Shown here: positions 3,011 through 59,322 of the stretch, piece by piece
Layout: each line of letters begins with the position of its first letter
Numbering within the stretch: the first letter of the stretch is position 1
Origin: Solea solea
Lineage: Eukaryota > Chordata > Actinopteri > Pleuronectiformes > Soleidae
Assembly (NCBI RefSeq): GCF_958295425.1
Contig: NC_081144.1
Span: forward strand, 6,797,186 to 6,861,185
DNA length: 64,000 nucleotides
Direction: 5' to 3'
The notes under the pieces: model-generated
Databases searched by the model: none
Told to the model about the DNA's origin: nothing
Seen by the model: only the letters and a program-made list of their open reading frames with translations
Translations under genes and position numbers: made by a program

Positions 3011-3339
3011 TTATGGCCAGGTACAGCAGTGGCAGGACTCTGAGAAGATTAAGTTGGTAAAACAATGTTGGATGTGAGTGATCTCATCCCCACAGTTGTA
3101 GTAAGAACCTGGAGAACCGGGAATGGCATATTGTCCATTGTCCTTTCCAACACAGAAATTGCTTTCCTCATCAGCAGAAGTTGTGGTGGTGGAGGTGGGG
3201 GTGGGGGTGGGAGTGGTGGTGGTGGTGGGGGTGGAGGTGGGGGGGGTGCTGGTGTGGGTGGTGGTGGTGGAGATGGTGGTGGTGGCGGTGGTGGTGGTGC
3301 AGGTGGTGGTGCAGGTGGTCGTGGTAGTTGACAAAGGCT
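3011..3339 (-). other. chia1-A last exon: Thr/Pro linker plus CBM14
   Basis: Begins after a ttctag acceptor. About 70 residues of Thr/Pro/Ser (likely O-glycosylated) precede a CBM14 domain. The linker is about 16 residues shorter than in copy B (3011-3339 versus 25999-26375), from in-frame repeat length change. Confidence 0.85.
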
Positions 3340-6300
3340 CTAGAATGGGGGAAAAAAAAATCACATTATGATGCAGTATTATTATATCATGTGAATGTGA
3401 CTGAGCTTAAGTTTTTACTCAAAGTCTTAATTGTACTACTGTTTATCATCACGACACTACTGTAGGATACAGCGTGTGACGTGACACTCATTCTACCCAC
3501 TTCACTCTTCACTGTCTACTGCTGTATCCTCTACATGAGGAAGCTGGTCACAGGTCACCAGTCCATCGCAAGGTCAACATACACAGAAAATGTCAAACCC
3601 GGATTCGAACTAGTGACCTTGTAAGAACACAGCATTTCAGCTGCTTTTTCCATTACTATGTTAAAACGTACAGTATATACAGAGGGTTAGAGACAATATA
3701 GAGTGTCTTATATCCTTTTTTTCCAGCACAACCTATAGGCAAAATGATGGAAAAAAAAAATAGAAAATCACCAACGATATAACCCAAGTACACCTGAGTA
3801 AAAAGTACAAAAATGTTTAAAATCTGAATGAATTTGTGAAATTTGGAAATACGTGACCTGTGCCGCACCTGTGCAGCTTATATTATTAACTACATGATAT
3901 TACTGCAGTGGTTTCAGTGTTTTTTCAAATGTGCGCATCAAGAATATAAAATCACTACCATGAAACCCAGAGGACAGAATAGATAGTTGTTGTTTACCTA
4001 TTAGAAGATTATGCAGATGTTGGACAAGGGGATATTTGCCCAAATCACAGAAGGCCCCGTTGAAATCATCCAAGTCCAGAGACCAAACAAAGCCTCCGCC
4101 AAAGTTCTTTTCTTTTATGAAGTCCACCTGAATATTACAAAAAAAATCATGAGCAACTGTTTATCTGGTTTTGTGTTACCTTCCAAAGATCAGTGCTTTA
4201 CCTTATAGTCAATGCTCATCTTATCATCGTATCCAACCCACTGATTTTCTTTTATGCCATATGGAACTTTCTGTTCTTCAGACCACATTACAGTCCCTGT
4301 TTTAAGATGGTCACACACCTGAAAAGGGGATGGGTGAGATTTGAAATTGTATTTGAATTGCATGTTCAGAATGTATATGAATGATCAGAGGGTTCAGTTG
4401 TACCTCATAGTAGGCCCAGAAGCCTGGTGCCTTGGTGTAAGGGCCTGCCTGACCTGCTCCACTGATTGGTGCTCCGAAGTCACTGTTGAAAGTGGACAGT
4501 GTGAAGGTTCGTCCATATGCACCAAATCCCATAATGAGCTTTTCAGAGGGTGCGCCGCTGTCCCTCCAGTATGTCATTGCATATTCCTGAAATGTGAGGA
4601 AAAAAAAGATATTTGTAGCCCTTATACATTAACAATAGAATATTGCAGTCAAATTTAAAACAATTATATTGTGTAAAAGACAACTGAGTTTGTACACATT
4701 AATAAGGCTTTGAGTCTTCTTTCACTCATTCTCTGTTGTGTTGTAAAAGCCCAACAAAGGATGTTTAAAAAAGGGAACAATCTTGTGTTATATTACATAT
4801 TTTCATTCTCTTGCAGTTTTTCGGCACGTGCCACTGTTGCTTTTACACCTTTGCTGCGTTGACATTCATCATGTGTTGCTGATACACATAAGCAAAAGAA
4901 ATACATGCTATCTACATTTTTTTTTTTTTTTTAGGTTTTCCATCAGAAGGTAACCCATAAAAAAGGGGGTTCATAATGCTGCGCCAAGCAAAATCAAAAA
5001 ATATTTTTATATCCACATTATTGACCAAACCCTCTGTTTGCAGAAATGCACAAAAAAGGCATTTCATTCTTATTTTTGCTTTATTATTCGAATCAACCTA
5101 TATATAAATGTAGTTCATTCACTCCCTAAGCAGTAAGTGAATAAACAATTCCTCAAAGTGATTAAGTATTTTAGCCCAACAGGAGGTGATGATAGTTTGA
5201 TGATATTAAGGATCACTGTACACATCTGTTGTCACACATTTTCATTCTGTCCAGACAAATTGTGAAAACATGAAGTGTTCCCTGAAAGGAACCTACTTAT
5301 TATAGTCTCTGTGAAAGAAATGAATTACTCACAGCATTTTTGAATGCAGAAGTTCCCTTGTCCTTACTTCTCTTGTACAAAGGACTATGATGTCCTGTGA
5401 CTCCGTCCCATACACCATGCATATCAAATGTCATTACATTTATGAAATCCAGGTAACTGGGGGAAAACAAACAAGCAAAGAATAAAGAAAATGTGATCAA
5501 GTTAACTATGACCCCAACTATTTAAAATAAGGGTGGAGAATAAAAAAAAGTCTTGATTACCTGGAAATGAATGGAACATCATAACCGTTATCAATGTATG
5601 GTTTGTAAGCAGTCACGGCAGCTGTGACCAGCAGTCTGGGAAGGCCATTTAGCGTTGCCTCTGCAACAAAGGCTTTGTACAAATCCTACAAAACATACAG
5701 ACATGTGCCACAGTTTTGTTTATGTTTGTTAAATGTCAAAACAAAATCATCACATTCACCCTGTGCAATGTTTGTTTCGGAGAATAAATGACATATCAGA
5801 CCTGGCACAGTATTGAAAACATGTCTTTGTGTGCGCTTTGAGGATATTCCCAGTCCAGGTTGATCCCATTAAAGTCTCTTTCTCTCAGGAATTGAATTGT
5901 AGACTCAATGAAAGTTTTTCTACTTTCTGTGTGTGATGCCATGTTGATGAATCTGGAAGTGACATAAAAGGAGATGATTATGATTTGTCATGGTGTTATA
6001 GTACTCATATGGTATGTTGTTATTTGCGTATTGCATACTTATTATTGTCAAATACAGCGCCTCCAATTGCCACAAGGACTGGTAGGTGAGGATTTCTATA
6101 TGAGAAAATCATTATTGTTATTATCATTCATTGTCTACCACTATATAAGGAACATACACACACACTTCATACAGAAAGGCCCTTGGTTGGACACGGGTCC
6201 ACTGCAATGTTACTGTTGTTTTTTTAAGTGAAAAAATATTTAAAAGGTTACAACTCACTCTTCTCTTAACAGACTTAAATCATTTAAGTATATCTCGTCA

Positions 6301-6692
6301 TCGGAGTTTCTGGCAACCAGCTGATTGTTACTCATGTCGGCGAAGGCAAAGATCAGATGGGTGCACAGGTTTGGATCGATGTTCGAAGTGGTGAATTTTC
6401 CCAGCGTCTGTCGGTAGACGGACCAGCTGGTGACATAACACACCAGTTTTGAGGAACAAGCTGAAAGACATCAATATGAAAAGTTACTTTGTGTTTAGGC
6501 TCATTATGAATCAACACAATTTTCGTTCGAAGGGATTCAGTTAAAATATAAACTCACCCAAGCTGGTGATGGTCAAGCACAGACCTTCAAAGTGACAAAC
6601 TCAGTCAGTATTCACTTGAAACAAAGCTTTTGCAAACATTCATTTGGTCATTATAAATGTGCCTTACCCGCAATCAGAATGAACTTGTTCAT
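3011..6692 (-). CDS. chia: acidic mammalian chitinase-like protein, copy A (chia1-A)
   Basis: Secreted GH18 chitinase-family protein, 489 aa, rebuilt from 11 exons: 6668-6692, 6558-6584, 6259-6460, 6039-6095, 5802-5952, 5561-5685, 5333-5456, 4404-4586, 4202-4318, 3998-4127 and 3011-3339. All junctions are GT-AG and the frame stays open. The order is signal peptide (about residues 1-18), GH18 barrel to about 380, short Thr/Pro linker with some Cys, and a six-Cys CBM14 chitin-binding domain ending CHCCTWP. The usual catalytic motif DGxDxDxE reads NGINLDWE (Glu139 kept, two Asp changed to Asn). The subsite Trp of GGWNFG is Ala (GGAVF), and the MTYD motif reads MTFD. Chitin binding is likely; catalysis may be weak or altered. 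It converges on pm20d1. Confidence 0.93.
3480..3640. repeat. interspersed repeat fragment
   Basis: The stretch holding 'accagtccatcgcaaggtca' and 'ggattcgaactagtgacctt' resembles a common teleost interspersed repeat. Copy B carries the same piece near 26520-26660, so it predates the duplication. A fragment that looks like the other end of this family lies near 52500-52670. Confidence 0.5.
3628..3745 (+). repeat. dispersed repeat, inverted copy at about 9955-10075
   Basis: The stretch from the GCTTTTTCCATTAC region to the CAGCACAACC region is the reverse complement of about 9955-10075 with few changes, and is also present at about 26672-26765. It is probably a small DNA transposon that moved within copy A. 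Confidence 0.6.
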
Positions 6693-13984: not shown

Positions 13985-14515
13985 CTAAGCCCAGGACCAG
14001 TTGCAGCATTTGCAATTTGCTCTGTAGACCAAACCAGTTTGGCATTGATGAATATGTGCTACAGAATTAGTACATTGCAAAAAAGAATAGTTGTTCTTGG
14101 GATTAGGGTAAATACCATCACGTTTTCCTTTACAATCTACTTCACTGGATACGAAAACTGTGGTTGTTGTGGTTGTAGTAGTGGTGGTTGTGGTTGTTGG
14201 AGTGGTGGTTGTGGTAGTTGGGGTTGTGGTTGTAGTAGTGGGAGTGGTGGTTGGAGTGGTGGTTGTGGTAGTTGGAGTTGTGGTTGTAGTAGTGGGAGTT
14301 GTGGTAGTTGGAGTGGTTTTTGTGGTAGTTGGAGTTGTGGTTGTAGTTGAGGTTGTGGTTGTAGTAGTGGGTGTTGTTGTAGTGGGAGTTGTGGTAGTTG
14401 GGGTTGTGGTTGTAGTAGTGGGAGTTGTAGTTGTAGTAGTGGGAGTTGTAGTTGTGGTAGTTGGGGTTGTGGTTGTAGTAGTGGGAGTTGTGGTTGTGGT
14501 AGTTGGGGTTGTGTT
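13985..14515 (-). pseudogene. chia2-A: 5'-truncated last exon of the mucin-like chitinase
   Basis: On the minus strand, the Thr/Pro array (about 14160-14515) leads into an intact CBM14 domain ([13 protein letters not shown], ending CKCCNWSWA) and a stop at 13985-13987. This matches the last exon of chia2 at 38399. The array here is only about 355 bases, and the whole GH18 part with its nine exons is missing, because the duplication ends at about 14515. The open frame runs on to 14713 through unrelated sequence, with no signal peptide or clear acceptor. It is best read as a truncated pseudogene with a coding-quality CBM14 domain. Confidence 0.85.
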
Positions 14516-14865
14516 GATGGATGACATGGAAGGTGAAGATGTGAGTTGATGTTTTTGTTTTGATCTGTAAGATCTGATAAAAAAAAGTCGTTGTTTTTGA
14601 TGCACAAGTCTGTTTTTTTTTTTTTGAATCGAGCTTAAAACAAAATGAAACTTTGTGATCATTTTAGCGCACAAATGCCCCTGTGGCGGTTGCAAACATC
14701 TCTTGCAACACATTCGAATGGTTTGAAAGGGCCAATTTAATATTTATGTCCAATATTCTAATCGTAAAAGTAAAGCAAATACAAAATCACAACATTCGAA
14801 TAGGCTGAAATACTTGCAACTCATAATAATACTCTGTTATTGTGGATCTTTACTTGTAGAATAGA

Positions 14866-21115: not shown

Positions 21116-21132
21116 ATAGTCGTAGCTCCACA

Positions 21133-21440: not shown

Positions 21441-21477
<37 letters not shown>

Positions 21478-25998: not shown

Positions 25999-28900
25999 TT
26001 ATGGCCAGGTACAGCAGTGGCAGGACTCTGAGAAGATTAAGTTGGTAAAGCAATGTTGAATGTGAGTGATCTCATCCCCACAGTTGTAGTAAGAACCTGG
26101 AGAACCGGGAATGGCATATTGTCCATTTTTCTTTCCATCGCAGAAATTGCTGTCATCAGAAGTTGTCGTGGTGGTGGTGGGAGTGGGAGTGGTGGTGGGA
26201 GTGGGAGTGGGAGTGGGAGTGGTGGTGGTGGTGGGAGTGGGAGTGGGAGTGGTGGTGGTGGTGATGGAGGAGGTGGGAGTGGTGGAGGTGTGGGTGGTGG
26301 TGGTGGAGGTGGTGGTGGTGGGGGTGATGGTGGTGCAGGTGGTGGTGCAGGTGGTCATGGTAGTTGACAAAGGCTCTAGAATGGGGAAAAAAAAATCACA
26401 TTATGATGCAGTATTATTATATCATGTGAATGTGACTGAGCTTAAGTTTTTACTCAAAGTCTTAATTGTACTACTGTTTATCATCACGACACTACTGTAG
26501 GATACAGCGTGTGACGTGACACTCATTCTACCCACTTCACTCTTCACTGTCTACTGCTGTATCCTCTACATGAGGAAGCTGGTCACAGGTCACCAGTCCA
26601 TCGCAAGGTCAACATACACAGAAGATGTCAAACCTGGATTCGAACTAGTGACCTTGTAAGAACACAGCATTTCAGCTGCTTTTTTCCATTACTATGTTAA
26701 AACGTACAGTATATACAGTGGGTATAAGTGTCTTATATCCTTTTTTTCCAGCACAACCAATAGGCAAAAAAAAAATCACCAACGATATAACCCAAGTACA
26801 CCTGAGTAAAAAGTACAAAAATGTTTAAAATCTGAATGAATTTGTGAAATTTGGAAATACGTGACCTGTGCGGCACCTGTGCAGCTTGTATTATTAACTA
26901 CATGATATTACTGCAGTGGTTTCAGTGTTTTTTCAAATGTGTGCATCAAGAATATAAAATCACTACCATGAAACCCAGAGGACAGAATAGATAGTTGTTG
27001 TTTACCTATTAGAAGATTATGCAGATGTTGGACAAGGGGATATTTGCCCAAATCACAGAAGGCCCCGTTGAAATCATCCAAGTCCAGAGACCAAACAAAG
27101 CCTCCGCCAAAGTTCTTTTCTTTTATGAAGTCCACCTGAATATTACAACAAAAATCATGAGCAACTTTTTATCTGGTTTTGTGTTACCTTCCAAAGATCA
27201 GTGCTTTACCTTATAATCAATGCTCATCTTATCATCGTATCCAACCCACTGAGTTTCTTTTATGCCATATGGAACTTTCTGTTCTTCAGACCACATTACA
27301 GTCCCTGTTTTAAGATGGTCACACACCTGAAAAGGGGATGGGTGAGATTAGAAATTGAATTTGAATTGCATGTTCAGAATGTATATGTATGATCAGCAGA
27401 ATCATTCAGACTGATCAGAGGGTTCAGTTGTACCTCATAGTAGGCCCAGAAGCCTGGCGCCTTGGTGTAAGGGCCTGCCTGACCTGCTCCACTGATTGGC
27501 GCTCCGAAGTCATTGTTGGAAGTGGACAGTGTGAATGTTCGTCCATATGCAGCAAATCCCATAATGAGCTTTGCAGCAGGTGCACCGCTGTCCCTCCAGT
27601 ATGTCATTGCATATTCCTGAAATGTGAGGAAAAAAAAGATATTTGCAGCCCTTATACATTAACAATAGAATATTGCAGTCAAATTTAAAACAAAATGTTT
27701 AATGCTTATATTGTGTAAAAGACAACTGAGTTTGTTCATATAAATAAGGCTTTGAGTCTTCTTTCACTCATTCTCTGTTGCATGTTCATATAATGCTTAT
27801 TGACCAAACACTCTGTTTGCAGAAATGCACAAAAAAGGCATTTCACTCTTATTTTTGCTTTATAGAACCTACTCATTATATCATTATAGTCTCTGTGAAA
27901 GAAATGAATTACTCACAGCATTTTTGAATGCAGAATTTCCATTGTACTCAGGTCTCTTGTACAAAGGACTATGATGTCCTGTGACTCCGTCCCATACACC
28001 GTGCATATCAAATGTCATTACATTTATGAAATCCAGGTAACTGGGGGAAAACAAACAAACAAGCAAAGAATAAAGGAAATGTGATCAAGTTAACTATCTA
28101 TGACGCCAAGTATTTAAAATAATAGTGGAGAATAAAAAAAGTCTTGATTACATGGAAATGAATGGAACATCATAACCGTTATCAATGTATGGTTTGTAAG
28201 CAGTCACGGCAGCTGTGACCAGCAGTCTGGGAAGGCCATTTAGCGTTGCCTCTGCAACAAAGGCTTTGTACAAATCCTACAAAACATACAGACATGTGCC
28301 ACAGTTTTGTTTATGTTTGTTAAATGTCAAAACAAAATCATCACATTCACCCTGTGCAATGTTTGTTTCGGAGAATAAATGACATATCAGACCTGGCACA
28401 GTATTGAAAACATGTCTTTGTGTGCGCTTTGAGGAAATTCCCAGTCCAGGTTGATCCCATTAAAGTCTCTATCTCTCAGGAATTTAATTGTAGACTCAAT
28501 GAAAGTTTTTCTACTTTCTGGGTGTGATGCCATGTTGATGAATCTGGAAGTGACACAAAAGGAGATGAGCTACATTATGATTTGTCATGGTGTTATAGTA
28601 CTCATATGGTATGTTGTTATTTGCGTATTGCATACTTATTATTGTCAAACACAGCGCCTCCAATTGCCACAAGGACTGGTAGGTGAGGATTTCTATATGA
28701 GAAAATCATTATTGTTATTATCATTCATTGTCTACCACTATATAAGGAACATACACACACACTTCATACAGAAAGGCCCTTGGTTGGACACAGGTCCACC
28801 ACAATGTGACCCTATTGTTACTGTTTTTTTTTAAGTGAAAAAATATTTAAAAGGTTACAACTCACTTTTCTCTTAACAGACTTAAATCATTTAAGTATAT

Positions 28901-29318
28901 CTCGTCATCGGAGTTTCTGGCCACCAGCTGATTGTTACTCATGTCGGCGAAGGCAAAGATCAGATGGGTGCACAGGTTTGGATCGATGTTCGAAGTGGTG
29001 AATCTTCCCAGCGTCTGTCGGTAGACGGACCAGCTGGTGACGTAACACACCAGTTTTGAGGAACAAGCTGAAAGACATCAATATGAAAAGTTACTTTGTG
29101 TTTAGGCTCATTATCAATCAACACAACTTTCGTTTGAAGGGATTCAGTTCAATTTTTTGAATGAATGCAAAATATAAACTCACCCAAGCTGCTGATGGTC
29201 AAGCACAGACCTTCAAAGTGACAAACTCAGTCAATATTCACTCGAAACAAAGCTTTTGCAAACATTCATTTGGTCATTATAAATGTGCCTTACCCGCAAT
29301 CAGAATGAACTTGTTCAT
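25999..29318 (-). CDS. chia: acidic mammalian chitinase-like protein, copy B (chia1-B)
   Basis: 505 aa, with the same 11-exon plan as copy A: 29294-29318, 29184-29210, 28866-29067, 28636-28692, 28393-28543, 28152-28276, 27917-28040, 27434-27616, 27210-27326, 27006-27135 and 25999-26375. The order is signal peptide, GH18 barrel, Thr/Pro linker, CBM14 (ending CHCCTWP). The catalytic motif is [10 protein letters not shown]: Glu kept, two Asp to Asn, and Tyr to Phe after the Glu compared with copy A. The last base of exon 6 is T instead of G, which weakens the donor (CAT|GTAATC) and turns Ser into Ile. The linker is longer than in copy A. Intron 7 is about 450 bases shorter than in copy A. A 5' noncoding exon probably ends at 30178. 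Confidence 0.93.
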
Positions 29319-37000: not shown

Positions 37001-38398
37001 GAATAAATAAACTGAATAGAAAGAGAGATTTGATTGTTGTAGCTTAATGGAGTATTGTTTCCACTGTATACTGGGCCTATTATCTAATTGCACCTTAGAA
37101 ACAAAGAACAACCAACACAGAAACATCAAACATGAATTATGAAATATATCAAAACTAAAGAAAATATGGCAAACTTGAGGGACTTTTTTATATATATACC
37201 TTTTATTATTATTATTGAATTACACATTTAGCAGTATTTATTAGAATTGATCAAAGTTAGGCTTATATTAAACTGTATAAATATATGCGATGTGCAAAAC
37301 TGTGCCATCATGTTTAACAAAATCAGCAGGTAACAGTATTACATGTGCATAGTCCATACAAATAAGTCAGGCATCAGGTTATATTATGTCAGAAACAAAT
37401 GAGATATATTTTCCATGAATAAAGTTAGAACAGAGAAGGAAAACATTGGCAAATACACAGTATAAGTTGCTTATATTTCATATTAATAAATAAAATAAAT
37501 AGTATTTTATATTTACAGACACATAGGATACAAGGACACTTTATTGGTGTTGGAGAGCCTAAGGAAAGCTCAGAATGTTGATGTTGGTGATTTAATATTT
37601 AAATGCATATTAGTGAGTATGATTAAGAACCAGAAGCAACAACCACTAACTAATATTAATTAACAGTAATCAAAAAATGTATAGATTCATTTTTTTTGAC
37701 ATAGACCCATTTTGTTGATTAGAATAATTAATTTGCAAGCATAACTAACAACTCTTTAGGACTCATATACGTTGTAAATAAAAAGCATGGGGCTGTTTCT
37801 AAAAATGTAAAGAAAAAATGGGAATAAAAATAAACTGCATTTGACAGATTTAAAAAGTTTGTGTTTGTGAGCATTGTCCGCCAGTTCAAAGACAATTTTT
37901 CTCAGCACAAAATTGCAAAGAATTTAACATTTTACTGTCAACAGTTCTGAATATCGTGAAAAGATTCAGGTATTCAGGGGAAATCTCAAAGGTCAAGGGT
38001 ATAAACCAATGCAGAATGTGAAGGAACATCAAGCCATCCGGCAAAGATATAAAATAAACATTATACAGATTGTTTTTAACATAAATTGCAATTCTGATTG
38101 TGTGTTGGTCTGTTAGATAAAGGTTCACATGAATTAAAAAATTACAGCATTTAGTTTTTAAATTGTATTTTATAAAACTGTTGTATTGTTCTACTATTCA
38201 ATTGTTCATGTTTTGTTCTAGTAGTATTGTATGGTGGGAATGGTATGCAAAAGTGGGGAAATGGAGAAGGAAGATTAATAAAAGAAAAATTGTTGAGGAG
38301 CAAGAGAAGTAAATCATCCATGTAATGTCAACCAGTTGTTCAGTAAACAGTTAAAAGAAGAAAAATGATGTTCCTGTCTTTTTTACTGTAAAGTACGA

Positions 38399-41300
38399 CT
38401 AAGCCCAGGACCAGTTGCAGCATTTGCAATTTGCTCTGTAGACCAAACCAGTTTGGCATTCATGAATATGTGCTACAGAATTAGTACATTGCAAAAAAGA
38501 ATAGTTGTTCTCGGGATTAGGGTAAATACCATCACGTTTTCCTTTACAATCGCCTGTACTGGATACGAAAACTGTGGTTGTTGTTGTGGTTGTAGTAGTG
38601 GGAGTGGTGGATGTGGTTGTGGTGGTTGGAGTGGTGGTTGTGGTAGTTGGAGTTGTGGTTGTAGTAGTGGGAGTTGTGGTTGTGGTAGTTGGGGTTGTGG
38701 TTGTAGTAGTGGGAGTTGTAGTTGTAGTAGTGGGAGTTGTGGTTGTAGTAGTGGGAATTGTGGTTGTAGTGGTGGGAGTTGTAGTAGTGGGAGTTGTGGT
38801 TGTAGTAGTTGGGGTTGTGGTTGTAGTAGTGGGAGTTGTGGTTGTAGTAGTGGGAGTTGTGGTTGTAGTGGTGGGAGTTGTAGTAGTGGGAGTTGTGGTT
38901 GTAGTAGTTGGGGTTGTGGTTGTAGTGGTGGGAGTTGTGGTTGTAGTAGTGGGAGTTGTGGTTGTGGTAGTTGGGGTTGTGGTTGTAGTAGTGGGAGTTG
39001 TAGTTGTAGTAGTGGGAGTTGTAGTTGTGGTAGTTGGGGTTGTGGTTGTAGTAGTGGGAGTTGTGGTTGTAGTAGTGGGAGTTGTGGTTGTAGTAGTTGG
39101 GGTTGTGATTGTAGTGGTGGGAGTTGTGGTTGTGGTAGTTGGGGTTGTGGTTGTAGTAGTGGGAGTTGTGGTTGTGGTAGTTGGGGTTGTGGTTGTAGTA
39201 GTGGGAGTTGTGGTTGTAGTAGTGGGAGTTGTGGTTGTGGTAGTTGGGGTTGTGGTTGTAGTAGTGGGAGTTGTGGTTGTGGTAGTTGGGGTTGTGGTTG
39301 TAGTAGTGGGAGTTGTGGTTGTAGTAGTGGGAGTTGTGGTTGTGGTAGTTGGGGTTGTGGTTGTAGTAGTGGGAGTTGTGGTTGTAGTAGTTGGGGTTGT
39401 GGTTGTAGTGCTGGGAGTTGTGGTTGTAGTAGTGGGAGTTGTGGTTGTGGTAGTTGGGGTTGTGGTTGTAGTAGTGGGAGTTGTAGTTGTAGTAGTGGGA
39501 GTTGTGGTTGTAGTGGTGGGAGTTGTGGTTGTAGTAGTGGGAGCTGTGGTTGTGGTAGTTGGGGTTGTGGTTGTAGTAGTGGGAGTTGTAGTTGTAGTAG
39601 TGGGAGTTGTGGTTGTAGTAGTTGGAGTTGTGGTAGTAGTAGTGGGAGTTGTGGTTGTAGTGGTGGGAGTTGTAGTTGTAGTAGTGGGAGTTGTGGTTGT
39701 AGTAGTGGGAGTTGTGGTTGTAGTGGTGGGAGTTGTAGTTGTAGTAGTGGGAGTTGTGGTTGTAGTAGTTGGGGTTGTGGTTGTAGTAGTGGGAGTTGGA
39801 GTTGTAGTAGTGGGAGTTGTGGTTGTGGTAGTTGGGGTTGTGGTTGTAGTAGTGGGAGTTGTAGTTGTAGTAGTGGGAGTTGTGGTTGTAGTAGTGGGAA
39901 TTGTGGTTGTAGTGGTGGGTGTTGTAGTTGTAGTTATGGGAGTTGTGGTTGTAGTAGTTGGGGTTGTGGTTGTAGTAGTGGGAGTTGTGGTTGTAGTAGT
40001 GGGAGTTGTTGTTGTAGTAGTGGGAGTTGTAGTTGTAGTAGTGGGAGTTGTGGTTGTAGTAGTTGGGGTTGTGGTTGTAGTGGTGGGAGTTGTGGTTGTA
40101 GTAGTGGGAGTTGTGGTTGTGGTAGTGGGAGTTGTGGTTGTAGTAGTGGGAGTTGTAGTTGTGGTAGTTGGGGTTGTGGTTGTAGTGGTGGGAGTTGTGG
40201 TTGTTGTAGTGGGAGTTGTGGTTGTAGTAGTGGGAGTTGTGGTTGTAGTGGTGGGAGTTGTAGTTGTAGTAGTGGGAGTTGTAGTTGTGGTAGTTGGGGT
40301 TGTGGTTGTAGTGGTGGGAGTTGTGGTTGTAGTAGTGGGAGTTGTGGTTGTAGTAGTTGGAGTTGTGGTAGTAGTAGTGGGAGTTGTGGTTGTAGTGGTG
40401 GGAGTTGTAGTTGTAGTAGTGGGAGTTGTGGTTGTAGTAGTGGGAGTTGTGGTTGTAGTGGTGGGAGTTGTAGTTGTAGTAGTGGGAGTTGTGGTTGTAG
40501 TAGTTGGGGTTGTGGTTGTAGTGGTGGGAGTTGTGGTTGTAGTAGTGGGAGTTGTGGTTGTGGTAGTTGGGGTTGTGGTTGTAGTAGTGGGAGTTGTAGT
40601 TGTAGTAGTGGGAGTTGTGGTTGTAGTAGTGGGAATTGTGGTTGTAGTGGTGGGTGTTGTAGTTGTAGTTATGGGAGTTGTGGTTGTAGTAGTTGGGGTT
40701 GTGGTTGTAGTAGTGGGAGTTGTGGTTGTAGTAGTGGGAGTTGTTGTTGTAGTAGTGGGAGTTGTAGTTGTAGTAGTGGGAGTTGTGGTTGTAGTAGTTG
40801 GGGTTGTGGTTGTAGTGGTGGGAGTTGTGGTTGTAGTAGTGGGAGTTGTGGTTGTGGTAGTGGGAGTTGTGGTTGTAGTAGTGGGAGTTGTAGTTGTGGT
40901 AGTTGGGGTTGTGGTTGTAGTGGTGGGAGTTGTGGTTGTTGTAGTGGGAGTTGTGGTTGTAGTAGTGGGAGTTGTGGTTGTAGTGGTGGGAGTTGTAGTT
41001 GTAGTAGTGGGAGTTGTAGTTGTGGTAGTTGGGGTTGTGGTTGTAGTGGTGGGAGTTGTGGTTGTAGTGGTGGGAGTTGTGGTTGTAGTAGTGGGAGTTG
41101 TGGTTGTGGTAGTTGGAGTTGTGGTCGTAGTAGTGGGAGTTGTGGTTGTGGTAGTTGGGGTTGTGGTTGTAGTAGTGGGAGTTGTAGTTGTAGTAGTGGG
41201 AGTTGTGGTTGTAGTAGTGGGAGTTGTAGTTGTAGTAGTGGGAGTTGTGGTTGTAGTAGTGGGAGTTGTAGTTGTAGTAGTGGGAGTTGTGGTTGTAGTA

Positions 41301-44300
41301 GTGGGAGTTGTGGTTGTAGTGGTGGGAGTTGTAGTTGTAGTAGTGGGAGTTGTGGTTGTAGTAGTGGGAGTTGTGGTTGTAGTGGTGGGAGTTGTAGTTG
41401 TAGTAGTGGGAGTTGTGGTTGTAGTAGTTGGGGTTGTGGTTGTAGTGGTGGGAGTTGTGGTTGTAGTAGTGGGAGTTGTGGTTGTGGTAGTTGGGGTTGT
41501 GGTTGTAGTAGTGGGAGTTGTAGTTGTAGTAGTGGGAGTTGTGGCTGTAGTAGTGGGAGTTGTGGTTGTAGTGGTGGGAGTTGTAGTTGTAGTAGTGGGA
41601 GTTGTGGTTGTAGTAGTTAGGGTTGTGGTTGTAGTAGTGGGAGTTGTGGTTGTAGTGGTGGGAGTTGTGGTAGTGGGAGTTGTGGTTGTAGTAGTGGGAG
41701 TTGTGGTTGTGGTGGTTGTAGTAGTGGGAGTTGTGGTTGTGGTAGTTGGGGTTGTGGTTGTAGTAGTGGGAGTTGTAGTTGTAGGAGTTGTGGTTGTAGT
41801 AGTGGGAGTTGTGGTTGTAGTGGTGGGAGTTGTAGCTGTAGTAGTTGGGGTTGTGGTTGTAGTGGTGGGAGTTGTGGTTGTAGTAGTGGGAGTTGTAGTT
41901 GTAGTAGTGGGAGTTGTGGTTGTAGTAGTGGGAGTTGTGGTTGTAGTGGTGGGAGTTGTAGTTGTAGTAGTGGGAGTTGTGGTTGTAGTGGTGGGAGTTG
42001 TAGTTGTAGTAGTGGGAGTTGTGGTTGTAGTAGTTGGGGTTGTGGTTGTAGTGGTGGGAGTTGTGGTTGTAGTAGTGGGAGTTGTGGTTGTGGTAGTTGG
42101 GGTTGTGGTTGTAGTAGTGGGAGTTGTAGTTGTAGTAGTGGGAGTTGTGGTTGTAGTAGTGGGAGTTGTGGTTGTAGTGGTGGGAGTTGTAGTTGTAGTA
42201 GTGGGAGTTGTGGTTGTAGTAGTTGGGGTTGTGGTTGTAGTAGTGGGAGTTGTGGTTGTAGTAGTGGGAGTTGTGGTTGTAGTGGTGGGAGTTGTGGTTG
42301 TAGTGGTGGGAGTTGTAGTTGTAGTAGTGGGAGTTGTGGTTGTAGTGGTGGGAGTTGTAGTTGTAGTAGTGGGAGTTGTGGTTGTAGTTGTTGGGGTTGT
42401 GGTTGTAGTGGTGGGAGTTGTGGTTGTAGTAGTGGGAGTTGTGGTAGTTGGGGTTGTGGTTGTAGTAGTGGGAGTTGTAGTTGTAGTAGTGGGAGTTGCG
42501 GTTGTAGTAGTGGGAGTTGTGGTTGTAGTGGTGGGAGTTGTAGTTGTAGTAGTGGGAGTTGTGGTTGTAGTAGTTGGGGTTGTGGTTGTAGTAGTGGGAG
42601 TTGTGGTTGTAGTAGTGGGAGTTGTGGTTGTAGTGGTGGGAGTTGTAGTTGTAGTAGTGGGAGTTGTGGTTGTAGTAGTTGGGGTTGTGGTTGTAGTGGT
42701 GGTAGTTGTGATTGTAGTAGTGGGAGTTGTGGTTGTCGTAGTGGGAGTTGTGGTTGTAGTGGTGGGAGTTGTAGTAGTGGGAGTTGTGGTTGTAGTAGTT
42801 GGGGTTGTGGTTGTGGTAGTTGGGGTTGTGGTTGTTGGAGTGGTTGTTGTGGTAGTTGGAGTAGTGGTTGTAGTAGTGGGAGTTGTGGTTGTGGTAGTTG
42901 GGGTTGTGGTTGTAGTGGTGGGAGTTGTGGTTGTAGTAGTGGGAGTTGTGGTTGTGGTAGTTGGGGTTGTGGTTGTAGTAGTGGGAACTGTGGTTGTAGT
43001 GGTGGGAGTTGTGGTTGTAGTAGTGGGAGTTGTGGTCGTGGTAGTTGGAGTGGTGGTTGTGGTAGTTGGAGTTGTGATTGTAGTAGTGGGAGTTGTGGTT
43101 GTGGTAGTTGGGGTTGTGGTTGTAGTAGTGGGAGTTGTGGTTGTGGTAGTTGGGGTTGTGGTTGTCGTAGTGGGAGTTGTAGTTGTGGTAGTTGGGGTTG
43201 TGGTTGTGGTTGTAGTAGTGGGAGTTGTGGTTGTAGTTGTGGGAGTTGTTGTTGGAGTGGTTGTTGTGGTAGTTGGGGTTGTGGTTGTAGTAGTGGGAGT
43301 TGTGGTTGTAGTAGCTGGAGTTGTGGTTGTGGTAGTTGGGGTTGTGGTTGTTGGAGTGGTTGTTGTGGTAGTAGGAGTAGTGGTTGTAATAGTGGGAGTT
43401 GTGGTTGTGGTAGTTGGGGTTGTGGTTGTACTAGTGGGAGTGGTGGTTGTTGTAGTGGGAGTTGTAGTTGTGGTAGTTGGAGTCGTGGTTGTCGTAGTGG
43501 GAGTTGTGGTTGTGGTAGTTGGGGTTGTGGTTGTAGTTGTGGTAGTTGGGGTTGTGGTTGTAGTAGTGGGAGTTGTGGTTGTAGTTGTGGGAGTTGTTGT
43601 TGTTGGAGTGGTTGTTGTGGTAGTTGGGGTTGTGGTTGTAGTAGTGGGAGTTGTGGTAGTAGCTGGAGTTGTGGTTGTGGTAGTTGGGGTTGTGGTTGTT
43701 GGAGTGGTTGTTGTGGTAGTTGGAGTAGTGGTTGTAGTAGTGGGAGTTGTGGTTGTGGTGGTTGGGGTTGTGGTTGTACTAGTGGGAGTGGTGGTTGTTA
43801 TAGTGGGAGTTGTAGTTGTGGTAGTTGGAGTCGTGGTTGTCGTAGTGGGAGTTGTGGTAGTTGGGGTTGTGGTTGTAGTTGTGGTAGTTGGGGTTGTGGT
43901 TGTGGTAGTTGTGGTTGTAGTTGCGGTTGTTGTGGTAGTTGGGGTTGTGGTTGTAGTAGTGGGAGTTGTGGTTATGGTTGTAGTAGTGGGAGTTGTAGTT
44001 GTTGTTGTAGTAGTTGGAGTAGTGGTTGTAGTAGTAGTGGGAGTGGTAGTAGTTGGGGTTGTGGTTGTAGTAGTGGGAGTTGTGGTTGTGGTAGTTGGGG
44101 TTGTGGTTGTAGTAGTGGGAGTTGTGGTAGTTGGGGTTGTGGTTGTAGTAGTGGGAGTTGTAGTTGTAGTAGTGGGAGTTGTAGTTGTGGTAGTTGGGGT
44201 TGTGGTTGTTGGAGTGGTTGTTGTGGTAGTTGGGGTTGTGGTTGTAGTAGTGGGAGTTGTGATTGTGGTAGTTGGGGTTGTGGTTGTAGTAGTGGGAGTT

Positions 44301-47300
44301 GTGGTTGTGGTAGTTGGGGTTGTGGTTGTAGTAGTGGGAGTTGTAGTTGCAGTAGTGGGAGTTGTAGTTGTGGTAGTTGGGGTTGTGGTTGTTGGAGTGG
44401 TTGTTGTGGTAGTTGGAGTAGTGGTTGTAGTTGTGGTAGTTGGGGTTGTGGTTGTTGGAGTCGTTGTTGTGGTAGTTGGAGTAGTGGGAGTTGTGGTTGT
44501 AGTTGTGGTTGTTGGAGTGGTTGTTGTGGTAGTTCGAGTAGTGGTTGTAGTTGGGGGAGTTGTGATTGTGGTTGTAGTAGTCTGGGTTGTGGTTGTAGTA
44601 GTTGGGGTTGTGGTCGTGATAGTTGGAGTTGTGGTCGTGGTAGTTGGGGTTGTGGTTGTGGTTGTAGTCGGGGCAGTTGTGGTGATACTAGCTGGGGTTG
44701 TGGTTGTGATAGTTGGGGTTGTGGTTGTAGTAGTGGGAGTTGTGGTCGTGGTAGTTGGGGTTGTGGTTGTGGTTGTAGTTGGGGCAGTTGTGGTGATACT
44801 AGCTGGGGTTGTGGTTGTGATAGTTGGGGTTGTGGTTGTAGTAGTGGGAGTTGTGGTCGTGGTAGTTGGGGTTGTGGTTGTGGTTGTAGTCGGGGCAGTT
44901 GTGGTGGTACTAGCTGGGGTTGTGGTTATGGTAGTTGGGGTTGTGGTTGTAGTAATGGGATTTGTGGCCATGGTAGTTGGAGTGGGAGTTGTGGTGGTGG
45001 TAGTAAGAGTTGTGGCCATGGTAGTTGGAGTTGTGGTCGTGGGAGTTGTGGTTGTGGTAGTCGGATTTGTGGTTGTAGTAGTGGGAGTTAAGGTCGTGGA
45101 TGTTGGGGTTGTAATAGTGTGAGTAGGGGTTTTGGTAGTTGGGGTTGTGGTTATTGGAGTTTGCATGAGTGTTTTCAATTGGCTGAAGAAGGGACTGCTG
45201 CTCTGGTTACAAAATCTTCCATTAAAGTCATCCAGGTCCAGTGACCATACAACAGCTCCTCCAAAATTGTTTGCTCGGAGGTAACTGACCTGAGAAGTGG
45301 AGGAGGACAACATGTTGACTAAATATCAAAATTTGTGATTGGCAAAGTTTTCACTTCAATTTTTAAATATTTTTTACCTTTGCATTGAGACTTTCTTCAT
45401 TATCAAATCCAACCCACTGGTTTTCTGTGATGGCATATGGAACTCTCTGATCATTTATCAGCTTGATGGTAGCGCCATCAGTATAAAGACAGGTCTGAAA
45501 GAAATGTGTAACAATATAGATTTAAGCATGTGCTGTAATAGTTATTCAGTCCAAACATTAAGCAAAACTGTGTCTCACTTCACTCATGATCAAGTATGGC
45601 CACATACACACAAGTATTGTTGCTAACTTGATTCATAGTTATAGTCCAAATTACAACTCATAGCTGCATAACAAATGAACATTTCTTTTGCGGATTTTGA
45701 CTCTTGATCGATCATTACAATTACTATCTCAATGTTGTGATGGAACTTTGTGGAAATTCTTGCATCAACGGAAACAAATTTCCTCTATTTTGCTCTGACC
45801 CACAAAACATTTTGGCCAATCAAGACGTAGATGTATGTTAAGTAATATGTTACTGTTCACTAAGGCTATGGATATTGTACTTATAACTTCTTGCAGTCAC
45901 AACTCATTGTTAGAGATAACCCCTCTGGCATTTTACCAATGCATTCCTAAACCGGTATCCAGATCACCACCAAAATATAATGTTCTTTTCATTGGACCAT
46001 GACCTACATCTCCTTGAAATTTCATCCAAATCCACCCTTTATATTTTAAGTTATGCTGCTAAAAATCAAACTCCCGAAAACATGACAGCATTAATGTAAG
46101 TAAGAATATCATGACAGGTTACCTCATAATAAGCCCAGAATCCATCTTCACCAGTGTAGCAGCCTTCTTCACCAGGACCGTTGGCAGGTGCTCCAACATC
46201 AGTAGATGCAGAGGAGAGGTTGAAAGCTCGCCCATATGCTGCTATTCCCAAATTCAACTGTTCAGCAGATGCTCCTTGTTCCAACCAATATTGCATGGCA
46301 GAGTCCTAACATGTGGGACAAAACAATAAGGATTAAAAGGCATCTCTTGACAGATTGGTGTTCAAGTAGTTTATGTGTGAATTCTGGTATTTACAGTGTT
46401 AGAGTAAATGTGGTCTCCAGTGTCTTTGGATCCCTTGTATAAAGGGCTGTGATGTCCTGTGACACTCTCCCAGGGGCCATGAAAATCAAATGTCAGCACA
46501 TTAATGAAGTCCAGGTGCCTGATAAAATGTAGAGGAGAACATGTTAACCAAACATTCAGATTGCCAATCCTAGGTATAAAGTGAAGAACTGCAACATCAA
46601 ATTCAGTTTTACTTTGCAATTTGCCCGACTTCATAACTGGCATCGATGATGTCTTTCTCAGCGGAGACACTAGCCGTTAGGATCAATTTGCTGAAAGTTC
46701 CTAACTCTGGATCAGTTGCAAACATTTCTTTGAGTTCCTACAAAGCAAAGAAGCATGGCTCAGTTTGTCGAGTTCAAAATCTTATACGAACATGGAGCAC
46801 ATTGTATATTTCCAAGAGAGGCAGAGGAGAGGGTCTGACCTTGCACAACAGTGTGAATTTCTGCTTGTACCCTGTTTGGCTTCCAGGGAACCGCCAGTCC
46901 AGGTTAAGCCCATCAAAACCATATTCTCTCAGTTTTGTCACAGCAGATAGGGCAAATGCTAATCTGCTCAGTTGTGATGACACCATTGTTCTGAATCTGG
47001 AAAACATTTAAACAGTGCTCTCAACATCCACATAATAACAGTAATATTAACAAGCAATCACTTGCTGCATTAGTCTGCTACAATACAAGAAAATCCAGCA
47101 GTAGACACAAGTAGAAAAGTACAGTTGAGGCAAACATGCATTGCAGACAACTAGTGAGTGTTTGAGCTTAATTACGTTTCTTTTGCAGCAAACCAATTTG
47201 GATATATATTTTATTATTTTTGAACTATGAACAACAATCGTAATATTAGCAAGTTTGGCATAAATAAAGTATGTCCATCTATCTTTCTAACCATGTACTG

Positions 47301-48297
47301 TACAATGGAAAACTAAAATTTGTTGGTTTTATTTAACAGATAAGGTGCAAAGAAAGGGCTAAGGGTTTAGGTTAGGTGTGTTGTAGCAGGGAAACATGCG
47401 TGGCAGTGGGTCCCAAGGACCAGAATTGAGAGACCCTGTCATATGTTTGTCGTCAGTGACACCTAAAATATTTTCTTTGTCGCTTTTTCTGTGAAGTAAA
47501 TGTTCAAGTGAATTATCAAATTACAGATTTACATTTTATTGTATTTTTTAGAAAGTGCCCTTACCACTGGGGATAGGGTAGATACATTCTAACAAAAACA
47601 CCTTAATATTCTAGTATGTAACTTACTTTTCCGTGTTGAAGTTTATGCCACCAACTGCGAGAAGTGTTTTGAGCTCGGGATTTCTGTGGGAAATACAGTA
47701 ATAAAGTGACATATACAAAACATACATACACAACTGAACACTATTCTAAGAATATTGAGAAGCGAAAGGTCTGACCTGCTTTTGAGTTCATTAAATTCCT
47801 CATAACGTTGAATGTCAGAGGCTTTCATCGGGGCCAACTCATTTGACTCACTAATACCAGCAAAGGCGAAGATCAGATGAGTGCATTTGTCAGGATCGAT
47901 GTCTGAAATTGTGAACTTTCCGTCTGCAGCTCGGTTTTCAGCCAAGCTGTTGTAGTAACAAATCAGTTTGGTGGAAGAGGCTGTAACATGAGAAATAAAA
48001 ACAACTTTTTTTAAAAATTGACTGAAATGGTTTCAGCAATAGTTAATGCAAAGGAGGATTTAACCCTAACCCAAATAATGTTTCCAACATTTCCAAACTT
48101 TTTAACATTTCAATCTTTATTGAAGAATGTAAACTGTAATTAATGTTATAAACTCACCAAAGCTGGCAATGATCAGGAGGAAACCTTCAAAGTTAAAGAG
48201 TTTGTCAGTATGAGATTGAAAATAGTGTGTGTTTTGGTTCACCTGAATAATATATATATTGTGAGACCTTACCTGCGGTCAGTATTGGGTTAAACAT
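38399..48297 (-). CDS. chia: giant mucin-like, catalytically dead chitinase (chia2)
   Basis: Chitinase-derived secreted protein of 2636 aa, ten coding exons: 48273-48297, 48158-48184, 47776-47980, 47627-47683, 46840-46996, 46613-46737, 46395-46518, 46123-46305, 45378-45494 and 38399-45289. All sites are GT-AG and the frame closes. Order: signal peptide (about 1-18), GH18 fold (about 22-383), Thr/Pro mucin tract (about 384-2579), CBM14 (about 2586-2636, ending CKCCNWSWA). The catalytic motif reads [10 protein letters not shown]: Glu140 is Arg and Asp136 is Asn. MTYD is LTFD and GGWNF is GGINF. It should not hydrolyse chitin but may bind it. The last exon fuses what are exons 10 and 11 in chia1 and chia3. 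The tract stays in frame over 6.6 kb, suggesting selection. The peritrophin-like role is inferred. Confidence 0.92.
39604..41073 (-). repeat. 735-bp higher-order repeat inside the array (two copies)
   Basis: Three separate sequence markers recur exactly 735 bases apart: TAGTTATGGGAG (39932 and 40667), TGGTAGTAGTAGTGGG (39631 and 40366), and TTGTTGTAGTGGGAG (40201 and 40936). 735 equals 35 units of 21. The outer boundaries are approximate. Confidence 0.85.
44600..44935 (-). repeat. 111-bp triplicated sub-block (37 codons)
   Basis: GGGGCAGTTGTGGTG-type markers occur at 44670, 44781 and 44892, each 111 bases apart. The block encodes an Ala/Ser/Ile-containing variant of the Thr/Pro unit at the GH18-proximal end of the array. 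Confidence 0.85.
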
Positions 48298-51284: not shown

Positions 51285-52010
51285 TACTCACATGTTCCAT
51301 TGTAATAACTATAGAAGGAGCTGGTGACGCTCATTAGATATTTCTTATCGGGGATATGGATGACAAAGTATGTAGGTTTAACAAAACAGTTAATATGTCC
51401 AGAATTATTAGATCAGGATCCATAAAAGCATCATATTGATTCTCAATCTTGAGTCTGGGGACTCACTGCCCGGCATGTTTTAGATGTTTCCCCTGCTCCA
51501 ACACACCTGATTCAAATCAATGAGCTGTTATCAGGCGCCTGCAGTGACTTGTTGATGAGCTGACCATTTGAATCAGGTGTGTTGGAGCAGGGGAACATCT
51601 TAAACATACAGGATTTACATCAGCTGTAAAAGCTCTGGATTGTCAAAGTCATCCCACGTCTCGCCTACAGACCTCCAAATGGACACATGCCAAGAGTTTC
51701 AGCCAATATGAACCGATGTCTTTTTCCATCAGTTTTATGTTGAAGTTATACGTTTGTCTGCAAAAGCAGCATCAGGCGAACATTGTTCCAGACAGAGTAA
51801 GTAAATAAACTCTCCACAGAATTCTGCTCCTCCAGAAACGCTTTGTTACGATTGATAGGAGTCATACATCTCATCTGCTCCTCTATTACTGAAACTGAAT
51901 CTTTACTATTCATGACACATCTAGAAGATACATTCAAGTGAAGGGAATATTCCTGAGCAGTTCAAGACAAATTCACAGGTCCACACCACGACAGTCTTCT
52001 TCTAATTAGC
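51285..52010. repeat. local duplicate block 1
   Basis: Matches 54415-55135 along most of its length, including unique-looking flanks (CACATGTTCCATTGT, GTTAATATGTCCAGAATTATT) and a palindromic core (CTGCTCCAACACACCTGATT and its complement). This is more than a shared transposon, so a small segmental duplication is likely. Confidence 0.7.
51455..51615. mobile_element. palindromic MITE (Cys-loop type fish repeat)
   Basis: CCCTGCTCCAACACACCTGA and its reverse complement TCAGGTGTGTTGGAGCAGGG bracket a short core. A second copy lies at about 54590-54750. Confidence 0.7.
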
Positions 52011-56926: not shown

Positions 56927-59322
56927 CTAGGGCCAATCACAGCATTTGCAGCTTTCACGAAAAACTAAATTAGCTGGACAATGCTGGACCCAGGTGATGC
57001 CGTTGGCACAGCTGTAAAAAGAGCCAGGGGCATCACTTTTTGCATAAATGCCACCAGCCCTTGTAGCACAGAAGTTGTCAGCTGCAGGTTGTGGCTGTGG
57101 CTGTGGTTGTGGTTGTGGCTGTGGTTGTGGTTGTGGCTGTGGCTGTGGTTGTGGCTGTGGCTGTGGTCGAGGTGTAGATGGAGTCACTGCAGATGGTAAA
57201 CTTCCTCCCGTGGGAAGGGGAGGAAGGTCTGGAGATATAGAAGAAACTCTTTAGTCGTCGGTAGATTCAAAGTAGAATCAATTGTTGCAACAAATTACTT
57301 TAAGCTTGCAAACTTGTTGTCTTCTTACCAGAAGCCAAAAGAGTGCGAAGATGGCCAATCAGGGGGTAATTTCCTTGTCGACAGAACTGTCCATTAAAGT
57401 CATCCAGATCCAGAGCCCAAACAAAGGCTCCTCCAAATCCATTGGTTTTCATGTAACTTACCTAAAAAAAAATGAATAACCAGTCATGGTACATTACTAT
57501 ATCTACTATATATTATATCTTTAACTTGACTTTTGTATATACACACACACACACACACGACAGACTACCTTAGTGTTAAAACTTTCCCTGTTGTCATATC
57601 CAGCCCACTCCTTTTGTTTGGTGGCATAGGGAACTTTCTGGTCCTCAATCATGTGGACACTGGCCCCTTGAAGGAAGGAGCAAATCTGAAAATAAATAAA
57701 TAAAATAAAATAAAATATAGACTGAGGGTTAAATGCAACAAATAGCTGCCAGTTTTACCTCATAATAGGACCAGAACCCAGCCTCCCTGGTAAAAGCAGC
57801 GGCAGCTCCAGGGCCAGATGCTGGCGCTCCAACACCACTGGATTCAGTGGACAGTTTAAATGTCCTTCCATATGTAGCAAATCCCATATTTAGCTTTTCT
57901 GCAGGTGTTCCCTTGTCCCGCCAATACCTCATGGCAAAGTCCTGAAATTAAGATGCAAAAACTTTGACATGAAATCAAGTTTTAGTCTAAATTTAGTGCA
58001 AATTGTAACCATATTCCTGAAGAACTGAATGAAAAATCACACGTACAATGTTTAGGTAAACATTGTCACCGGTGTCATGGGACCCTTTGAATAACGCGCT
58101 GTGATGTCCTGTCACAGTTTCCCAGGATCCGTGTAAATCGTATGTCATCACATTAATAAAATCCAAGTACCTGATGAGAAAAGGAGCTCAAGTTCCCAAA
58201 GACATGTCAACAGTTCATCACTGGAATAATGTGAATTATGACTAACTCCTCGGTTTACTTTGCAATCTCAGCGATTTCATAACCAGCGTCGATGGTTCCT
58301 TTCCCGGCTGACACGGCTGCAGAGACGATCAATCTTGGTTTGCCAGTTGTCGTGCTTTCAGCCTCATAGGCCTCAAGGAGTTCCTGTACAAAAGTGACCA
58401 AAAGTCATCAAAGTGACCTCATGAATGTGAAACAAAGGCTGAATGTGAGAAAAGTCGTTCTAATTCCAGTACTGACCTTGCATAACACAGTGAATCTCTG
58501 CTTGTCCTCCAGAGGACTTCCTCTTGCAGCCGGGTATTCCCAGTCCAGGTCCAGTCCATCGAAACTAAATTTTCTCAGTAGTTTGATAGACGACTGGATA
58601 AATGTATTCCTGTTCGCTTGCGTTGACACCATCCTAGTAAATCTGGATTGTGTTTGGAGGGTAAAAATAAAATGCTCTGAGGGAGACATGATACTAGAAC
58701 TTCAACAGTTGTTTAACGTGCAAATATCTCACTTTTGCGTTCCAAAGTTCCAGCCGCCAACTGCCAACAGTGTTTTAAGATTTGGATTCCTGTGGGATAC
58801 ATGGAGCTTAGATAATATAGAACTTAAATAGGCTGCAGTTTCTTATCTTTCCATTGCAATTTACAACAAATGGCAAAGAATGTTGTACCAACCTCTGTTT
58901 GAGGCCATTAAATGATTTATAGAGTTCCTCATCGTTCCATTCTATGGTGGCCAACTCATTTGCCTCGTTAATACCAGCGAAGGCGTAGATCAGGTGGGTA
59001 CACAGCAGTGGATCAACATTTGATGGCATATATTTCCCATTGCCAGGTCTGTACTGGGACCAGTTAGTGAAATAACACACCAGTCTGGTGGTTGACACTA
59101 AATGTAGAAGAAAGTTTTTAGTTGTTTTTTTTTGTCATTTGTAAAATAAGTTAGTTAATAAGACTGTAATCTATGAACTTACCCAAACTACCAAGGCAAA
59201 GACAGAGACCTATTCATGTTACAGATATAGTAATTAATATTATGTGACATGAGATGAACACCATAAAACAACAGGACAGTCTTTTATTATGCCTTACCTG
59301 CTATTAGAATGTGTTTGTTCAT
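56927..59322 (-). CDS. chia: acidic chitinase, catalytic motif intact (chia3)
   Basis: Secreted GH18 endochitinase, 487 aa, 11 exons: 59298-59322, 59183-59209, 58893-59097, 58733-58789, 58477-58642, 58259-58383, 58047-58170, 57759-57941, 57569-57685, 57329-57461 and 56927-57228. All junctions are GT-AG and in frame. Order: signal peptide (about 1-18), GH18 barrel, Pro-Gln repeat linker, CBM14 ([10 protein letters not shown] to CKCCDWP). The motif [10 protein letters not shown] is complete (Asp133, Asp136, Asp138, Glu140). [17 protein letters not shown] and VWALDLDDF are also present, so it should hydrolyse chitin. It is the closest of the four to human AMCase, with the same exon 5 length (166). 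A minus-strand poly(A) signal may lie at 56726-56731. Confidence 0.95.
57080..57175 (-). repeat. Pro-Gln coding hexanucleotide repeat in chia3
   Basis: The plus strand is a run of GGTTGT/GGCTGT units that encodes about 14 Pro-Gln dipeptides on the minus strand, between the GH18 and CBM14 domains. The sister genes use Thr/Pro here instead. Confidence 0.9.
57541..57558. repeat. (AC)n microsatellite in chia3 intron 9
   Basis: Short AC run close to the exon 9 donor. Confidence 0.8.

Follow-up and report, generated by a model that had tools for sequence, protein, structure and literature searches.

A giant threonine/proline tract on a predicted dead chitinase of Solea solea, and its clade of fish relatives

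The genome of Solea solea contains a predicted giant gene of the chitinase family, here called gene D, in which a GH18 domain predicted to be catalytically dead is followed by a Thr/Pro tract of mucin composition and by a single CBM14 domain. The gene lies on the minus strand, at 48297-38399 of a 64,000-nucleotide stretch of contig NC_081144.1 (assembly GCF_958295425.1, positions 6,797,186 to 6,861,185), which was analysed as a whole and is referred to as the window. Comparison with homologous proteins suggests that gene D is the extreme mucin case of a clade whose tails vary in tract length and in the number of CBM14 domains, and its product may function as a mucin tethered to chitin.

Gene model and giant tract of gene D

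Gene D consists of ten exons, the introns being bounded by AG/GT, and the joined reading of 7,911 coding bases contains no internal stop and encodes 2,636 amino acids. Exon 1 (48273..48297, minus strand as all the others) holds the start codon and the N-terminal part of the predicted signal peptide and ends at a GT donor, and exon 2 (48158..48184) holds the remainder of this peptide, which was recognized by eye, without a predictor, from the hydrophobic N-terminus. The GH18 domain (residues 1-383) extends from exon 3 (47776..47980), which includes its N-terminal part and the sites of the lost Trp31 and Trp71 (catalytic and groove positions are given in human CHIT1 numbering), through exon 4 (47627..47683) with the site of the lost Trp99, exon 5 (46840..46996) with the catalytic strand and an Arg codon, CGG, at position 140, exons 6 (46613..46737) and 7 (46395..46518), exon 8 (46123..46305) with an extra, clade-typical Cys289 (own numbering), and exon 9 (45378..45494). 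Exon 10 (38399..45289) alone comprises the end of GH18, the entire tract, CBM14 and the stop codon; within it, a tandem array chiefly made of 21-base units coding PTTTTTT occupies 38573..45089, and CBM14 with its lead-in, 38402..38569. In the neighbouring genes A, C and E, the linker and CBM14 form a separate exon, since a stop cuts their frame off from the last GH18 exon.

The GH18 domain is complete according to three lines of comparison: the Pfam Glyco_hydro_18 profile is matched in full (E=1.9e-88 over residues 22-360, profile positions 1-317 of 317), the sequence matches CHIT1 in PDB (E=1e-114), and the AlphaFold model of a turbot relative, P0012, adopts the fold of chitotriosidase (2.1 A from 1hkk over 365 columns), with a mean predicted local distance difference test score of 76 and weak stretches between 212 and 240. 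The CBM14 domain, located in the last 56 residues, has the six cysteines of the peritrophin-A type found in peritrophins and matches both Pfam CBM_14 (E=3e-10) and CHIT1 in PDB (E=1.6e-12). A Pfam scan covering the first 416 and the last 63 residues of the product yielded GH18 and CBM14 only, with no VWD or cystine-knot domains in these scanned ends, and a gel-forming mucin of the MUC2 type was ruled out on this basis. The sequence-only reading of this stretch had proposed ten exons in frame with 7911 coding bases, a complete GH18 with the catalytic Glu changed to Arg, about 2195 in-frame Thr/Pro residues and an intact CBM14 after them, all of which were borne out, the tract measuring 2,196 residues.

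This tract spans residues 384-2579 and is composed of 1826 T, 312 P, 22 I, 16 A and 8 S, that is, 83% Thr and 14% Pro, which makes it a mucin in the broad sense of long Thr/Ser/Pro repeats. Antifreeze glycoproteins are built on an Ala-Ala-Thr repeat, and this identity was rejected given the 16 Ala in 2,196 residues. Consecutive prolines are spaced by 7 residues in 263 of 311 cases and irregularly in 48. The openness of the array was discarded as proof of coding, being weak evidence: stops are improbable by one step, random substitutions producing one in 0.026% of trials, and other frames are nearly open, the two alternatives on the sense strand containing 8 and 5 stops and the three antisense frames 2, 1 and 537. 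Since the 21-base unit holds the frame unaided, the informative part is the keeping of the frame across the 48 irregular spacings. C occupies the second codon position in 2,156 of the 2,196 codons, and every window of 20 codons holds at least 14 of them, so that no stretch of the tract is shifted; its frame is the one that connects GH18 and CBM14, and CBM14 was lost in all 2,000 trials in which a one-base deletion was simulated in the array.

The longest exact repeat within the array measures 533 bases, its copies lying 735 bases apart, which is a multiple of 21. Copying has enlarged the array, whose length is subject to the assembly. Such a place is error-prone for assemblies, and a related copy in the window (fragment B, described below) holds a tract of only ~119 residues; a true array that is far shorter, or of a different length, and a giant tract produced by mis-assembly would fit both. 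However, the units differ by scattered variants, which makes wholesale false duplication unlikely, and the frame is kept throughout; we therefore regard an assembly artefact as most improbable.

A clade of fish chitinases predicted to be dead

Homologues were drawn from a main list of the best 120 of 1,167 matches and from a list obtained with a longer query, the best 120 of 147; as both are ordered best-first, the clade counts over-represent close kin. Among 143 aligned GH18 domains, the catalytic position is occupied by Arg in 84, Glu in 38, Met in 12 and another letter or a gap in 9. The rows of P0001, P0015, P0028, P0070, P0088, P0099 and P0100, pieces shorter than 280 residues and one beetle Met row were dropped for the tree, and 98 of the 125 rows that it comprises form a single set (99 in the Shimodaira-Hasegawa-like approximate likelihood ratio test, SH-aLRT) with 84 Arg, 11 Met, 2 Trp and 1 Thr, and with Glu in none of the 98. 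As all Arg, Met, Trp and Thr rows fall in one Glu-free set, one loss suffices, and an inactivation unique to gene D was rejected, the loss being common to the whole clade. An extended tree, with ten domains added from seven chosen proteins of the longer-query list, recovered a clade set of 103 rows with a support of 93.

Gene D groups with turbot, tongue sole and right-eyed flounders in an 18-row set (support 96), where tongue sole is its nearest neighbour (support 85); it reaches its highest identity, 72%, with turbot, and its end branch measures 0.26. The species of the clade are all, as we take them to be, spiny-rayed fishes, and the other listed fish (Serrasalmus, Albula, Labeo, Merluccius) have the catalytic Glu. 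Many of the fish relatives are named chitinase-3-like in databases. Across the 98 clade rows, identity amounts to 95% or more in 122 of 383 columns; gene D breaks 5 of these near-invariant columns and keeps 117, ranking 86 of 98, and by this measure appears divergent yet within the range of the clade.

At the active site of gene D, the catalytic Glu140 of the DxxDxDxE motif is replaced by Arg, the change by which a GH18 protein is classed as a dead chitinase, and Asp136 by Asn, as in 79 of the 84 Arg rows. In the groove, Trp31 has become Leu, Trp71 Ala and Trp99 Ile, and an aromatic groove of the YKL-40 type is therefore missing, while Trp358, Asp213, Tyr267 and Arg269 are kept. The groove and Cys289 counts were made on the 98 clade rows, leaving P0001_4 out, and the Glu rows number 38 in the Cys289 count, 36 without A and C, and 23 when invertebrate and unnamed rows are also left out. 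Trp31, Trp71 and Trp99 are jointly missing in 96 of the 98 clade rows when gaps are counted as absences; 10 rows have a gap in at least one of the three positions, and all three are missing in 86 of the 88 ungapped rows. Two rows, P0055 and P0089, keep one groove Trp. By comparison, all three are found in 13 of the 23 vertebrate Glu rows, and two or more in 19. Trp358 persists in 94 of the 98 clade rows. Judged by these residues, the head of the clade is a retained fold with a stripped chitin groove. The extra Cys289 is present in 85 of the 98 clade rows and in 0 of the 38 Glu rows; it could pair with Cys156 inside the barrel or join two molecules.

The architectures of the relatives are those of database gene models, which are possibly imperfect, and the counts of tracts cover the main homologue list, P0126, P0212, P0220 and P0226 not being included. 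Thr/Pro tracts of at least 20 residues occur in 42 of 96 clade proteins and tracts of at least 100 in 8; among Glu-type proteins, 8 of 23 reach 20 residues and 0 of 23 reach 100, with a maximum of 96. A length without match had been supposed for the tract of gene D, and it is the longest among the proteins retrieved, the maxima being 274 residues in the 96 clade proteins and 481 among the 230 proteins fetched, the latter in a protein with the catalytic Glu.

A CBM_14 match was obtained in 42 of the 96 clade proteins, and several members have multiplied this domain. P0220 of Siganus canaliculatus (1,791 residues) combines one Arg-type GH18 with 16 CBM14 stretches separated by Thr-rich spacers. 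The Met-type P0212 of Plectropomus leopardus has 11 stretches, P0040 five and P0089 four, and all four proteins lie inside the dead clade. P0220 and P0212 show the most peritrophin-like vertebrate layouts among the proteins examined. Another model, P0125, combines a Glu-type and an Arg-type domain and may be a fusion of neighbouring genes.

The surrounding chitinase cluster

The minus strand of the window carries several chitinase genes in a cluster: A, C, D and E, together with fragment B. Paralogue A (3017..6461) encodes a GH18 with DWEYP, a short Thr tract and CBM14, and paralogue C (26005..29068) is its segmental duplicate, with DWEFP. The segmental duplication relates positions 1-14155 to 19113-38569, in pieces that are 88-99% identical, and copied the A/C pair, whose GH18 parts are 96% identical, as well as the 3' end of gene D. 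The latter copy is fragment B (13985..14743), a Thr/Pro tract of ~119 residues plus CBM14, 93% identical to the 3' end of gene D and devoid of GH18; the duplication therefore ended in or near the array. No GH18 exon was detected by tblastn between 6461 and 26005, and B was rejected as an independent gene on account of this and of its position inside the segmental duplicate.

The catalytic Glu is retained in paralogues A and C, whose motif reads NGINLDWE, Asn replacing the first two Asp of DxxDxDxE; Trp71 is replaced by Ser, Trp99 by Ala and Glu297 by Ala. Both join the dead clade in a 101-row set (support 99), and may be weak or dead despite their Glu, as far as these residues tell. Paralogue E (56933..59122) has a GH18 of catalytic type (DWEYP, Trp31, Trp71 and Trp99 kept), a Gln/Pro linker and CBM14. 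Its linker, at 57090-57167, is a Gln/Pro repeat (PQPQ, 18-base unit), and the linkers of A, C and D are Thr-rich. Direct repeats at 51287-51999 and 54420-55137, between genes D and E, are 73% identical over 779 alignment columns.

Upstream of E, at 61491-63863, one minus-strand frame carries a clear Bravo_FIGEY tail (67.9 bits, cut-off 23.8) and two others gave weak FN3 matches below the Pfam cut-off; together they are likely the 3' end of a gene for an L1-family cell adhesion protein. One neighbouring frame had no match in PDB. Two database models of other fish fuse immunoglobulin-type domains (one is named contactin-2) and chitinase domains. We take NFASC, CNTN2, CHIT1 and CHI3L1 to be neighbours on human 1q32, which would make the window the CHIT1/CHI3L1 locus.

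Proposed role, known systems and meaning

We propose that the product of gene D likely works as a chitin-tethered mucin that does not cut its substrate, a reading to which we assign about an even chance. From the sequence, we infer that the gene is transcribed, that its product is secreted and glycosylated, that CBM14 binds chitin and the groove does not, and where it would be located; likewise, its assignment as an inactive chitinase rests on residues. In the proposed mechanism, a secreted protein, densely O-glycosylated along the tract as its composition predicts, would be fixed to chitin at one end by CBM14, and the GH18 barrel would act as a stable head without cutting, probably a poor holder of chitin given the three missing groove Trp. 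Extended mucin tracts measure ~0.25 nm per residue, and the tract with its 1,826 Thr would be stretched as a brush of about half a micrometre. The site of action may be a chitin-containing gut membrane, or alternatively gill or skin. Relatives that carry several CBM14 domains would, with this design, crosslink chitin in the manner of arthropod peritrophins; in gene D, the tail would have gone to mucin bulk rather than to more CBM14.

Crosslinking by gene D itself, as was first suggested, does not agree with these features. It requires at least two chitin sites, and gene D has one CBM14, with the groove Trp31, Trp71 and Trp99 and Glu140 lost, which makes a second chitin site in its GH18 groove doubtful. 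A true peritrophin-like crosslinker, with the dead GH18 gripping chitin, CBM14 gripping a second chain and fibrils bridged across the tract, would fit the retained groove residues (Trp358, Asp213, Tyr267 and Arg269) and the relatives with many CBM14 domains; nevertheless, the joint loss of the three Trp extends to nearly the whole clade and a bulky Arg stands at the catalytic position, so that we find it quite unlikely. The single CBM14 and the stripped groove are the reason for favouring a tether. The comparison with peritrophins gains support from relatives in the clade that have 4 to 16 CBM14 domains, and falls short for gene D, which has one and not the several of a peritrophin.

Several observations weigh against the tethered-mucin reading and the clade history behind it. 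In the CBM14 of gene D, a Tyr of CHIT1 is replaced by Leu. The array displays 351 synonymous versus 36 non-synonymous variants overall, an excess that we rejected as a sign of purifying selection after splitting by frequency, the total being inflated by copied common variants: variants occurring 1-5 times comprise 22 synonymous and 36 non-synonymous events, close to the 1:2 of neutrality, and those present in a single copy 1 and 9. With its rare variants this close to neutrality, the tract is under weak residue-level selection or none. Moreover, 54 of the 96 clade models have no CBM14 match, possibly as gene models broken in repeats. P0126 (Siganus) places its 481-residue tract behind two catalytic-Glu GH18 domains, and long tracts are therefore not confined to dead members; besides, Trp71 is kept in only 17 of the 23 Glu-type relatives. 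P0226 of Sebastes fasciatus, with Arg and 11 CBM14 stretches, sits apart from the clade on a long branch (0.6) once the tree is extended; its membership was thus not borne out and it was excluded from the counts, and its Arg may reflect an independent loss of Glu or a wrong placement of the row. Finally, a salmon protein of the CHIT1 group whose catalytic motif is broken is described, in the available text, as weakly expressed and possibly pseudogenic (PMC10234404).

The same observations bear on two other explanations. Gene D could be decaying, a recent relic whose array runs away without counter-selection, as would suit the near-neutral rare variants, the truncated duplicate B alongside, the end branch of 0.26 and the low expression reported for the salmon CHIT1 group in the accessible part of that source (PMC10234404). 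However, its ten exons are open with AG/GT borders, the frame is held over 6.6 kb with an intact CBM14 beyond the array, and 117 of the 122 clade-invariant residues are kept; hence, decay appears very unlikely. The rare variants would equally suit a soluble decoy or immune lectin, whose GH18 head binds a new ligand (a microbial glycan or a host receptor) and whose tract is a drifting spacer. Mammalian chitinase-like proteins do bind other ligands such as host receptors, a new function of the head is suggested by the 122 of 383 columns that stay near-invariant despite the stripped groove and by the extra Cys289 of 85 of the 98 rows, and 54 of the 96 relatives have no Thr/Pro tract of 20 residues. 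Conversely, CBM14, needless for a soluble decoy, is kept in gene D and multiplied in several relatives, and we consider the decoy somewhat unlikely.

A chitinase-like protein with a mucin tail is already known as a kind, and gene D varies it. The nearest known system in plan is OVGP1 (oviductin, MUC9), which shares a dead GH18 followed by a mucin-like tail. OVGP1 is not known to carry a CBM14 and its tail is far shorter, whereas gene D belongs to a fish clade, has Arg at 140 and retains CBM14 behind its 2,196-residue tract; OVGP1 is mammalian and close to AMCase, as stated in the available text of PMC11719014. CHI3L1 (YKL-40), CHI3L2 (YKL-39) and Ym1 have a dead GH18 barrel of the same fold as the gene D clade. 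According to the available text of the respective sources, these lectins consist of the GH18 domain alone (PMC2717817), those of the CHI3L1 type keep groove Trp such as Trp31, and the strong substrate contacts of YKL-40 are assigned to Trp31 and Trp352 (PMC11190707); in contrast, the gene D clade lost Trp31, Trp71 and Trp99, and many of its members have tracts and CBM14. Human CHIT1 and the active fish CHIA/CHIT1 chitinases have GH18, linker and CBM14 in the order of gene D, and the GH18 of the turbot relative is 48% identical to human CHIT1; gene D differs in the loss of the catalytic Glu and in a linker of 2,196 residues versus ~36 in human 5hbf (382 to 419). Arthropod peritrophins and invertebrate intestinal mucins combine CBM14 and mucin tracts, as does the gene D clade (16 CBM14 in P0220, 11 in P0212), which differs in its dead GH18 head and its vertebrate host, with a single CBM14 in gene D.

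Among fish, salmon Chia.5, a CHIT1 member, also has a loss-of-function catalytic motif; the available text of the report gives a truncated CBM14 and low expression of the group and makes no mention of a mucin tract (PMC10234404), and the likeness does not imply kinship to the gene D clade. In salmon, chitin synthase and CHIO chitinases are described there as co-expressed in pyloric caeca and gut, with the low CHIT1 group left out (PMC10234404). Chitinous membranes are reported in the tilapia gut and chitin-probe signals in zebrafish and trout, and chemical purification of chitin from fish faeces failed, according to the accessible text of PMC6109156. Among the titles and abstract openings listed for open-licence PMC articles, none reported a mucin tract or numerous CBM14 domains in a GH18 protein of fish, a weak negative.

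Fish gut chitin membranes have thus been reported, and the available text names no fish protein that binds or organises this chitin (PMC6109156); the dead clade, with its mucin tracts and up to 16 CBM14 domains, offers concrete candidates for organising it. Tentatively, and with the probability on the doubtful side, spiny-rayed fishes might have evolved their own peritrophins from a chitinase whose catalytic Glu was lost a single time in their ancestors, as a scaffold of gut chitin membranes convergent with the peritrophic-matrix proteins of arthropods; if true, vertebrates would have arrived anew at a peritrophin-like module, starting from an enzyme. The giant tract illustrates the length that a coding repeat can attain if its 21-base unit holds the frame, and gene D, rather than a lone oddity, would represent the extreme of a dead-chitinase clade with tails between mucin brush and peritrophin.

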